A stretch of 54,809 bases of DNA from assembly GCA_019116585.1 (NCBI GenBank), contig DXBJ01000050.1, positions 1 through 54,809 on the forward strand, written 5' to 3'. Below the pieces are notes generated by a model. The model was not told the origin of the DNA, searched no databases, and saw only the letters and a list, made by a program, of their open reading frames with translations. This document shows, in pieces, positions 1 through 54,809 of the stretch (the first letter of the stretch is position 1; each line of letters opens with the position of its first letter). The DNA comes from Candidatus Faecalibacterium gallistercoris (GTDB taxonomy: Bacteria; Bacillota; Clostridia; Oscillospirales; Ruminococcaceae). The translations under genes and the position numbers were made by a program.

Positions 1-133
1 CCCTGGGGACAAAATTTGGCGCTGAACCGCGCACTCGCCGCAAAGCGGCTCGCACACTCTCAGCGCCAAATTTCCCTGTATGTGTCCCGACCGTACGCAC
101 ATGTCGTCCGCTCGGGACTTTATTGACTGTCTG
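1..133 (+). repeat. Structured repeat, copy 1 (5' end cut by window)
   Basis: First of four copies; the others are at 9754-9968, 36741-36955 and, inverted, 54611-54745. Visible here are a long stem whose arms start AAATTTGGCGCTGA and close TCAGCGCCAAATTT, with an inner hairpin GCCGC-AAA-GCGGC, and then a terminator-like hairpin at 84-118 (GTCCCGA/TCGGGAC) enclosing the invariant loop CACATGT. Stem bases differ from copy 2 in a paired manner (T-A for G-C, G-C for A-T, A-T for T-A). The 5' module seen in copies 2 and 3 would lie outside the window. Confidence 0.8.
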
Positions 134-9719: not shown

Positions 9720-9754
9720 AACAGGGGGTTCCCGCAAGGGAGCCCCCTGTTTTA
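9720..9754 (+). terminator. Terminator of rplJL
   Basis: Hairpin CAGGGGG-TTCCC-GCAA-GGGA-GCCCCCTG followed by TTTT. Its loop sequence TCCCGCAAGG (9730-9739) recurs exactly at 9981-9990, beyond the adjoining repeat copy. Confidence 0.9.
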
Positions 9755-9968
9755 GCGTGTCGCAAAAGCGCCACGCTCCAGGAGGAACCCATTTCTGCGC
9801 GCAGTCGCGCGGCAGAAATTCCTTCCCCCTGGTATCCCCCTGGGGACAAAATTGAGCGCTGAACCGCGCACTCGGCCTTGCGGCCTCGCACACTCTCAGC
9901 GCTCAATTTCCCCGTATGTGTCCCGTCCATCCGCACATGTCGGCTGGACGGGACTTTTTTGACAGGCT
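9754..9968 (+). repeat. Structured repeat, copy 2 (full length)
   Basis: Full 215-bp unit. Hairpins in order: P1 AGCGTG/CACGCT; P2 ATTTCTGC...GCAGAAAT with inner GCGC/GCGC; P3 AAATTGAGCGCTGA/TCAGCGCTCAATTT with inner GGCC-TTGC-GGCC between two GCRCACTC-like strings; P4 GTCCCGTCCA/TGGACGGGAC (9920-9954) with inner CCG-CACATGT-CGG, followed by TTTTTT and GACAG. It looks like a stand-alone structured RNA or a small non-autonomous mobile element ending in a terminator. Confidence 0.85.
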
Positions 9969-10017
9969 GGAACCGGAGAGTCCCGCAAGGAAAATCACTG
10001 TTTTTGTTGTGGGCCGG

Positions 10018-36708: not shown

Positions 36709-36710
36709 GC

Positions 36711-36733
36711 CCTCTCCCCGCCGGATGCGGGGG
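36711..36733 (+). terminator. Terminator-like hairpin after DUF4340 gene
   Basis: CTCCCCGC-CGGAT-GCGGGGGAG without a T run. Its TCCCCGCCGGATGCG (36715-36729) recurs exactly at 36961-36975. Confidence 0.55.
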
Positions 36734-36740
36734 AGCAGGC

Positions 36741-36955
36741 AGCGTGTCGCAAAAGCGCCACGCTCCAGGGGGAACCCATTTCTGCCTGCTGCGCAGGACA
36801 GAAATTCCTTCCCCCTGGTATCCCCCTGGGGACAAAATTGAGCGCTGAACCGCGCACTCGGCCTTGGGGCCTCGCACACTCTCAGCGCTCAATTTCCCTG
36901 TATGTGTCCCGTCCATCCGCACATGTCGGCTGGACGGGACTTTTTTGACAGTCTG
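36741..36955 (+). repeat. Structured repeat, copy 3 (full length)
   Basis: Same 215-nt unit as copy 2, same strand. P1 is identical; the inner part of P2 is CCTGC/GCAGG instead of GCGC/GCGC; P3 is identical with inner GGCC-TTGG-GGCC; P4 at 36906-36940 is identical with TTTTTT. The transporter operon ends 33 nt before it. Confidence 0.85.
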
Positions 36956-37058
36956 CCCCCTCCCCGCCGGATGCGCGGCCCTGCGCCTGTTTTTGTGCCC
37001 CGGGGCGGCGGGGGCCGGCGCGGCAGGGCGGCCGCGCCGAAAAAGATTCGTTTCTGAA

Positions 37059-41993: not shown

Positions 41994-42166
41994 ACAGCAG
42001 CGAGCCAACCCGGCGACTGTGAAATCTTTTTCTTCTTGCTTTTGGGATATCGGGCGCCGCCTGCCCCTCCTCCGGCTGTTCTCCTTCTCAGCTGTTAGGC
42101 CGGCGCCACACAGGCGATATCCCGCTTCGTGTGCAAAAAAGTCCGTCTTTCAAGGCGGGCTTTTTT
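41994..42166 (+). ncRNA. Candidate small structured RNA (about 170 nt)
   Basis: Lies between its own promoter and a terminator (AAGTCCGTC-TTTCAA-GGCGGGCTT, 42139-42162, then TTTTTT). The centre folds on GGGATATCG/CGATATCCC (42044-42052 with 42115-42123), continued by GGCGCC/GGCGCC, around an inner hairpin (GCTG/CAGC). Length and the one-long-arm shape would suit a 6S-like or other regulatory RNA, but I recognise no family. guaB downstream has its own promoter, so this is not simply a guaB leader. Confidence 0.5.
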
Positions 42167-54610: not shown

Positions 54611-54745
54611 CAGACTATCAAAAAAGTCCCGTCCAGCCGACATGTGCGGATGGACGGGACACATACAGGGAAATTGAACGCTGAGAGTGTGCGAGCCGCC
54701 TTGCGGCGAGTGCGCGGTTCAGCGCTCAATTTTGTCCCCAGGGGG
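54611..54745 (-). repeat. Structured repeat, copy 4 (inverted, short form)
   Basis: Same P3 and P4 as copies 1-3 on the opposite strand, upstream of and co-directional with the nucleotidase gene. One P3 arm has a G-U wobble (AGCGTTC opposite GAGCGCT), the inner hairpin is GCCGC-AAG-GCGGC, and P4 is at 54660-54626 with TTTTTT. The P1-P2 module is absent; instead a different hairpin (CTGCGCCA/TGGCGCAG, about 54747-54805) stands directly on its 5' side. Confidence 0.8.
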
Positions 54746-54809
54746 CAGCTGCGCCAAGCGCGTCCAGTGGACGAAGCAGCGAAGGCGCGGCTGGCGCAGC
54801 GCTCCGGTT

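Follow-up and report, generated by a model that had tools for sequence, protein, structure and literature searches.

Correia and ERIC belong to the bacterial MITEs, which are short, multi-copy, intergenic and foldable and have ends that match those of a full insertion sequence. For one family of insertion sequences, IS1182, direct repeats are known in the range 0-60. The same MITE traits are found in RUP and others, and the available part of the account that describes them also covers two small structured repeats, SPRITE and BOX of the pneumococcus, the former being terminator-like (PMC10969869). Within the IS1182 family, IS1272 targets stem-loops and terminators with no sequence consensus and, in the available sections of two reports, deletes or replaces the target stem-loop without duplicating it (PMC5678879, PMC4923244); duplication of the whole stem-loop is drawn in one of these as a possible pathway (PMC5678879).

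The repeat analysed here is like IS1272 and its family, as the accessible parts of those reports describe them, in its terminal inverted repeats, in the family of its candidate transposase (NF033551) and in its preference for stem-loops and terminators. IS1182-family insertion sequences carry a transposase, whereas the element carries none. It has the traits of the MITEs listed above, but departs from them, so far as the available text characterizes them, in its long, hairpin-sized target duplication, its terminator target and an internal core that crosses genera and has no match in the 30 IS1182 loci compared; with SPRITE and BOX, which are also small structured repeats, it is compared by description only. 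No description of the element was found in the open-licence papers searched. We consider it quite probable, judging from the ends, targets and duplications set out below, that the repeat is a non-autonomous, MITE-like element mobilized in trans by an IS1182-family transposase at terminator stem-loops.

Copies, anatomy and distribution of the repeat

The window, a stretch of 54,809 nucleotides from Candidatus Faecalibacterium gallistercoris, is the complete contig C5 of an 81-contig genome. A first-pass annotation had listed four copies of a structured repeat in it, and each was located at its place: copy 1 (positions 1-133, plus strand), of which the contig start leaves only the right part; copy 2 (9754-9969, plus strand), a full element with hairpins P1, P2, P3 and P4 that runs from AGCGTGTCGC to GACAGGCTG; copy 3 (36741-36955, plus strand), again a full element; and copy 4 (54611-54809, minus strand), which preserves the right portion of a long variant that has an extra hairpin module and is truncated by the contig end. 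The copy number of four was not borne out. BLAST returned at least 41 matches to the repeat in this genome, one of them just 29 nt long (40 of 109 candidates scored), and the exact P3 motif matched 62 times and the reversed motif not at all; the genome carries at least 62 element copies. Positions 1 and 54809 of the contig both lie inside repeat copies, many more of the genome's contigs end in the same way, and the repeat seems to be a main cause of the fragmentation. The element helps to explain why assemblies of such genomes break at these repeats.

Element copies measure about 210-680 bp. A short copy, of about 216 bp, consists of the hairpins P1, P2, P3 and P4 followed by TTTTTTGACAGTCTG, and the ends of the element form an imperfect inverted repeat (CAGCGTGTCGCAAAAG / CAGACTGTCAAAAAAG). 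In copy 2 the left terminal inverted repeat, AGCGTGTCGCAAAAG (9754-9768, plus strand), is also the 5' arm and loop of P1 and matches IS1182 ends; the base that precedes it is T in this copy and mostly C elsewhere. The right terminal inverted repeat, CAGCCTGTCAAAAAAG (9954-9969, minus strand), includes the T6 tract. P3, the conserved core hairpin (9842-9913, minus strand), forms a wobble helix, GUGUGC/GUGCGC, and a GA/GA loop on the minus strand, and P4 (9920-9954, minus strand) has a conserved apical loop that reads CACATG on the plus strand. The inverted-end pattern CAGNNTGTCNNAAAAG gave 44 matches in the genome, a few of which sit outside elements, for example inside a gene, versus one for the reversed pattern. 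In longer copies further hairpin modules lie between P2 and P3, and a single copy, L192, has them between P3 and P4 as well; the modules reassort among Faecalibacterium copies. In a set of long variants (L072, L077, L079 and L192) the longest reaches about 680 nt, and L077 has one module twice in tandem. In the G188 lineage (L349-L357, L292-L314) the P1, P2 and P3 stems are swapped en bloc between otherwise similar copies and the variants reassort, the replaced stems being mostly perfectly paired.

The facing stem changes, the unchanging P4 loop and the T tract are as the annotation described them. The tract had been read as the end of a transcript; it is indeed there, but it belongs to the terminal inverted repeat. 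P4 and T6 together look like an intrinsic terminator, a GC-rich hairpin followed by a T run, but a simple terminator scan did not list them, and the T run also belongs to the terminal repeat. As the T tract belongs to that repeat and many copies have target-site duplications, we reject a free-standing RNA family ending at the tract as the whole story, and with it a discrete RNA gene of that extent. A match to an insertion sequence or MITE, which the annotation itself had named as refuting its reading, is largely what was found. The right end (for example window positions 9959-9969) reads TTGACA outwards, a -35-like box that could make hybrid promoters with flanking DNA.

BLAST matched the repeat in 11 of 31 genomes of the genus and in 0 of 30 outside it. 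Apart from the genome of the window, the exact P3 motif was counted 39 times in G012, 33 times in G016, 15 times in G021, six times each in G013 and G014, four times in G001, three times in G024 and once in G002, with no occurrence in the remaining 22 of the 31 genomes. Among the matches listed by a pattern scan of named genomes, at least 73 stretches, are Candidatus F. intestinigallinarum, Ca. F. faecigallinarum, F. sp. An121 and An122 and other Faecalibacterium, together with an uncultured Oscillospiraceae from the isolate Lapin-012, which is from rabbit by its name. A covariance model of P3 (R1), scanned over 394 genomes of the order, was positive in seven and added two further genera, G188 and G221; single R1 matches in G131 and G277 were not accepted, a looser pattern having seen no motif at either place. 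Elements of G221 have the same ends and the same duplications, and the G188 copies have P1-P4 with no recognizable inverted ends or hairpin duplication. The core is present in four lineages of Oscillospirales, three of them with IS1182-type ends, and the richest genome seen per lineage holds between 13 and 62 or more copies. Neither viral contigs, searched for the exact P3 motif, nor plasmid records, searched with copy 3, gave a match. A Faecalibacterium-type copy is also present on L180, a contig that bears the label Candidatus Pullilachnospira, which is likely a binning error.

Terminator hairpins as targets and their duplication

The left end of the element lies mostly directly after a terminator stem, and the whole hairpin, of about 22-40 bp, is often present again on the far side. 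Copy 2 is preceded by the intact rplL terminator (9722-9753, plus strand), a stem-loop CAGGGGG..CCCCCTG with four T, and followed by a decayed copy of it (9970-10006, plus strand; duplication score 26, null 99% point 22), the two differing at 9 of 34 positions in a by-eye count without gaps. Copy 3 stands between the upstream terminator copy of a DUF4340 gene (36710-36740, plus strand) and its downstream duplicate (36956-36996, plus strand; duplication score 38). The threshold for duplication was the 99% point of 2000 mismatched flank pairs (a 1% null), and the sample comprised 102 distinct copies with both flanks, of 149 placed copies. Above this null the terminator hairpin was duplicated in 22 of 26 copies of the rabbit lineage (G061), in all five G221 copies and in 21 of 71 from Faecalibacterium; in an enlarged G221 set, which includes the first five and in which copies having 60 nt of internal sequence in common were merged, 13 of 15 copies have a duplicated hairpin. 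The duplicates are identical or nearly so over 24-35 bp in several copies (for example L259, L274, L286, L310 and L315). When the 45 clear duplications are aligned in both senses, 39 fit better as direct and six as inverted copies, four of the six by at least 10 score points.

A hairpin of -14 kcal/mol or lower lies within 40 nt before the element in 49/71 Faecalibacterium, 24/26 rabbit and 5/5 G221 copies, and the same criterion is satisfied by 88/355, 30/130 and 4/25 windows, respectively, drawn from the same loci. Some Faecalibacterium copies stand directly behind a stop codon with no terminator. The upstream gene points towards the left end of the element in 116 of the 133 copies that could be scored (of 187), and none of the 85 copies scored on both sides lies between divergent genes.

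Sites without the element have a single hairpin. In G012, G016, G021, G001, G024 and G013 rplL is followed by one terminator and no element, although these unoccupied sites show the left side only because the DNA further right differs. At the site of copy 3, which was readable in four of eight relatives (the other four had no exact match to the gene start), G007, G024 and G014 have a lone terminator between the same two flanking genes and lack the element. In G016 an independent truncated element (L145) lies in the opposite direction at the orthologous copy 3 site, which is therefore a re-used place.

Insertion sequences with matching ends

A candidate mover is found in G188, where locus L319 encodes a protein of 470 aa that matches NF033551 with 384.6 bits (cut-off 270) and is, on the strength of that match, assigned to the IS1182-family transposases. 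The element that carries it ends in CAGTTTGTCAAAAAAA and CAGTTTGTCAAAAAACC (also given as CAGTTTGTCAAAAAA) and is flanked on both sides by a 31-bp terminator hairpin, ACAGGTCCGGCATTTCAAATGCCGGACCTGT. When the 394 genomes of the order were searched with the L319 protein, 15 had a match at 1e-60 or better. A matching end pair was present at 17 of 19 related loci (with some doubt about the pair of L342, and with L343 truncated on its right), many with CAGCCTGTCGAAAAAG on one side. The hairpin is duplicated in 12 of the 17 insertion sequences having paired ends; the other five are without a hairpin duplication, one of them being cut on its right side. Whereas IS1272, in the available sections of the earlier open-licence work, deletes or replaces the stem-loop, these insertion sequences and many copies of the element have the whole hairpin duplicated, which is repeated evidence from nature that transposition of the IS1182 type is able to duplicate a complete terminator hairpin.

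The ends of the two kinds of sequence can be compared directly. In G221, CAGCGTGTCGAAAAAG of element copy L293 agrees at 15 of 16 positions with CAGCCTGTCGAAAAAG of several insertion sequences, and the Faecalibacterium ends, CAGCGTGTCGCAAAAG and CAGACTGTCAAAAAAG, are a looser fit to insertion-sequence ends. Terminal inverted repeats are common to the element and to full-length IS1182 elements, and both have the same target and the same duplication, the G188 copies excepted. Remnants of this transposase occur in three of the four lineages, and an intact copy in G188. In the genome of the window, L113 holds a remnant with 33 of 51 residues identical, whose left end, CAGTTTGTCAAAGAAC (also CAGTTTGTC), comes directly after a terminator, and which is broken off by an apparent other mobile gene. 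Further remnants lie in the rabbit lineage (L320 in G061, 71% over 109 residues) and in G221 (L321, 44% over 140 residues), the latter with an end, GACAGTCTG, beside a terminator. Since ends, target and type of duplication all coincide, we read the element as one probably moved by an IS1182-type transposase, and it can be classed, by the same features, as an IS1182-type non-autonomous element with whole-hairpin target duplication.

Element and transposase do not occur together consistently. No intact transposase of the L319 subgroup was found in Faecalibacterium. The genome of the window has two intact IS1182 genes, which are of other subgroups with other ends, and in the element-rich G012 DUF772 revealed no partner transposase and NF033551 matched only weakly (E 6.9e-6). 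Of the 11 genomes of the genus that bear the element, six (G001, G010, G012, G014, G019 and G024) lack an NF033551 match over the cut-off, G020 has such a match and no element, and among the 15 genomes whose L319-like transposase reaches 1e-60, G188 alone also has the core (R1). Loss of the mover after the element had spread would explain this poor co-occurrence. An autonomous copy bearing the element's ends was not seen in 258 loci scanned with the exact pattern; two of the four unmasked end matches in these loci come from rabbit-lineage elements. L091-L093, L109 and L094/L095, the IS1182 copies that were detected first, were rejected as partners, as their ends differ. The P3 model R1 had no match in 30 IS1182 loci, which argues against an origin of the element by simple internal deletion from an insertion sequence and makes the core look like cargo and not like an insertion-sequence left-over. 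A non-autonomous element using IS1182-type ends is a better fit than a plain deletion derivative.

In the mechanism that we propose, the transposase would recognize the terminal inverted repeats CAGnnTGTCnnAAAAG, and the element would be inserted at the foot of a transcription-terminator stem-loop. The strands would be joined at both hairpin feet, after which gap repair would leave the whole hairpin duplicated, and the second hairpin copy would decay later. The ends, the target, the hairpin duplication, the unoccupied sites and the insertion sequences with the same ends and duplication can all be read from the DNA; the movement in trans and the chemistry are inferred. With its hairpin duplicated the upstream gene would keep a terminator, and the insertion would consequently do little harm, which suggests how a genome could tolerate over 60 insertions, most of them behind genes. 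The second hairpin could also serve as an age clock for each insertion.

Several other IS1182-type sequences were noted in these genomes. In G020 (L096, about 1324-2925) an IS1182 element with ends CAGACTGTC lies inside an apparent domain V hairpin of a group II intron. A member of another IS1182 subgroup in G021 (L093, ends near 1400 and 2900), with ends GGAGCTGTTGACAAA, is located in the loop of a terminator-like hairpin; the loop sequence AAAAC stands on both sides of it, which is a loop duplication and not a stem-loop duplication. The remnant at L320 in G061 (reverse complement, about 1890 onwards) ends at an apparent CRISPR array whose repeats (ATTTCAACCCACGCACCCC..) are palindromic and may have been a further target of this kind. 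A protein of ~182-194 aa that has an N-terminal DUF772 transposase domain only is retained in several Faecalibacterium species (L099, L104, L103, L100 and others) and may be a domesticated DNA-binding protein.

The folded core and its strand

The element contains a folded core that is common to four lineages and has no Rfam match at gathering score. The stems differ between the lineages, and two stretches of P3, GCGCACTCG and CTCGCACAC, are kept with few exceptions. Copies 2 and 3 fold better on the plus strand than all 200 shuffles (z -8.2 and -8.6), as does copy 2 on the minus strand (z -10.0). In a plus-strand set of 62 P3 sequences, chosen for diversity from 131 distinct ones, 172 cells were changed on both sides of a pair, where shuffles gave 55.8 +/- 5.9 and slid structures no more than 48. 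A minus-strand alignment of 40 sequences, hand-picked from 83, gave 136 two-sided cells (shuffles 41.9 +/- 5.3, slid structures 50 or fewer), a count that is lowered by the register, which fits the Faecalibacterium and rabbit rows and is off in the outer stem of 11 G188/G221 rows. Paired changes strongly exceed both controls, which is covariation of the kind that the first-pass annotation had named as support for an RNA family, and 98% of stem cells (3105/3156) are Watson-Crick. It should be emphasized that, although facing changes are present, some of the stem differences between copies are hairpin modules exchanged en bloc and not independent compensations; exchange of modules between copies is evident.

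On the plus strand the kept P3 stretches resemble an internal loop. On the minus strand AGUGUGCGA and GAGUGCGCG pair, forming a helix GUGUGC/GUGCGC with three G-U pairs that is closed by a GA/GA loop. For every one of the 131 P3 sequences from Faecalibacterium and G061 the minus strand gives the better fold (mean -36.1 versus -24.5 kcal/mol), although these are not independent cases because the motif is nearly invariant, and the same holds for the single examples taken from G221 and G188. Whole copies fold better on the minus strand in 101 of 102 cases, and host flanks in 56 of 102. In the plus-strand stems of 51 short Faecalibacterium copies there are 18 distinct A-C mismatches (32 cells) and six distinct G-T mismatches (six cells), an excess of A-C that would follow from folding of the minus strand. 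In the 26 rabbit copies this asymmetry is absent (seven distinct A-C, five G-T), and by cells G-T outnumbers A-C by 29 to seven, with 25 of the 29 in one doubtful three-pair helix. The plus strand assumed at the outset is probably wrong, as the bases of the apparent P3 internal loop find partners on the complementary strand only and, in Faecalibacterium, A-C mismatches exceed G-T ones; the folded strand is most likely the one antisense to the upstream gene. The apical motif of P4, compared by eye across the four lineages, reads GCACATGTC, GCGCATGTC, GTACATGCC and GTACACGCC; on the antisense strand its loop is RCRUGYR.

The interior of inserted copies can be set beside the DNA that surrounds them. 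In copy 2 the stems and conserved loops are intact beside the second terminator, which has decayed. In four same-site copy pairs from two species, P2 and P4, the parts of the element to which the figure applies, are identical at 318 of 343 positions and the flanks at 1311 of 1452 and 1213 of 1360; a by-eye count gave one difference in 108 positions for the P3 loops of these pairs. Ten candidate same-site pairs were considered, of which seven were aligned, and three of the seven were left out of the count (elements arranged differently or alignment failed). These data, together with the 98% of Watson-Crick stem cells, suggest that the element interior is kept after insertion; conversion or homogenization among copies could equally keep the copies alike. 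In the best explanation the P3 and P4 core would be kept by selection for the folded strand. Selection on RNA structure, as first proposed, is partly supported, in that pairing is conserved with strong covariation, but what carries the structure is probably a mobile element and not a free-standing RNA gene. As a guess, we favour a cis-acting structure in mobilization by a small margin over an RNA that serves the host. It is conceivable, though less likely than not, that the core is a structured nucleic acid of an undescribed family, in at least four Oscillospirales lineages, that is either an active part of mobility or a functional antisense RNA at gene 3' ends and not a dead passenger.

It could be argued that the repeat is a structured RNA with a function in the cell, a 3' UTR element or an antisense small RNA, that was spread once by transposition and then kept by selection. 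The strong covariation, the nearly invariant core in four lineages, the better fold of the minus strand, the mismatch asymmetry in Faecalibacterium and the fact that P2 and P4 are as conserved as the flanks at the four shared sites all speak for such an RNA. Its presence is patchy, however, as 20 of the 31 genomes of the genus have no match, and many duplications are intact, so that the element is or was mobile; in addition, no sigma-70-like promoter was found in the copy 2 region, the rabbit lineage does not share the mismatch asymmetry, and homogenization between copies could also account for the likeness of the core. On balance we regard this explanation as unlikely. We attach the same low probability to the proposal that the paired changes arise from DNA processes, such as hairpin-templated correction of one arm or exchange of whole modules, and not from selection on a folded molecule. 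The en-bloc stem differences in G188 and the reassortment of modules in Faecalibacterium are consistent with such processes, and the inverted loops in six of the 45 duplicated host hairpins hint at hairpin-based rearrangement, but nearly invariant stretches beside freely changing stems in four lineages need selection on something, and a symmetric DNA process would not be expected to produce the strand asymmetry of the Faecalibacterium mismatches.

Two further explanations concern the terminators themselves. The duplicated hairpins might be independent terminators of facing genes and not target-site duplications, as 36 of the 85 copies scored on both sides lie between convergent genes and on the right side of 50 of 71 Faecalibacterium copies a second hairpin could not be detected. 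The paired hairpins are, however, alike in loop as well as stem, often over 25-35 bp, which mismatched flanks are not, and the unoccupied sites have one hairpin. For copies above the null threshold the proposal is refuted, and overall we find it barely credible. Group IIC introns use terminators as targets, and an element of that kind, a REP/RAYT-type element or another retro-element aimed at terminators could in principle account for the location of the repeat; this is very improbable, given that the window has no Rfam match at gathering score beyond IMPDH RNA and a tRNA and that target duplication together with terminal inverted repeats is a misfit with both the REP/RAYT and the group IIC intron classes. 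A non-autonomous element moved by an IS1182-type transposase remains our preferred reading of the repeat.

At gathering score none of the Rfam matches in the window falls in the repeat, in agreement with the expectation that it belongs to no named family, and for copies 2 and 3 and four further loci the match lists, taken up to E 0.5 or 1, contain sub-threshold matches only, the best at E 0.036. A resemblance of P3 to group II domain V was dropped, there being no Rfam match at gathering score; the features of group II domain V differ from those of P3. The IMPDH RNA (RF02994) is located on the same contig as the copies, at positions 42039-42147 of the window on the plus strand, with a score of 117.8 bits.
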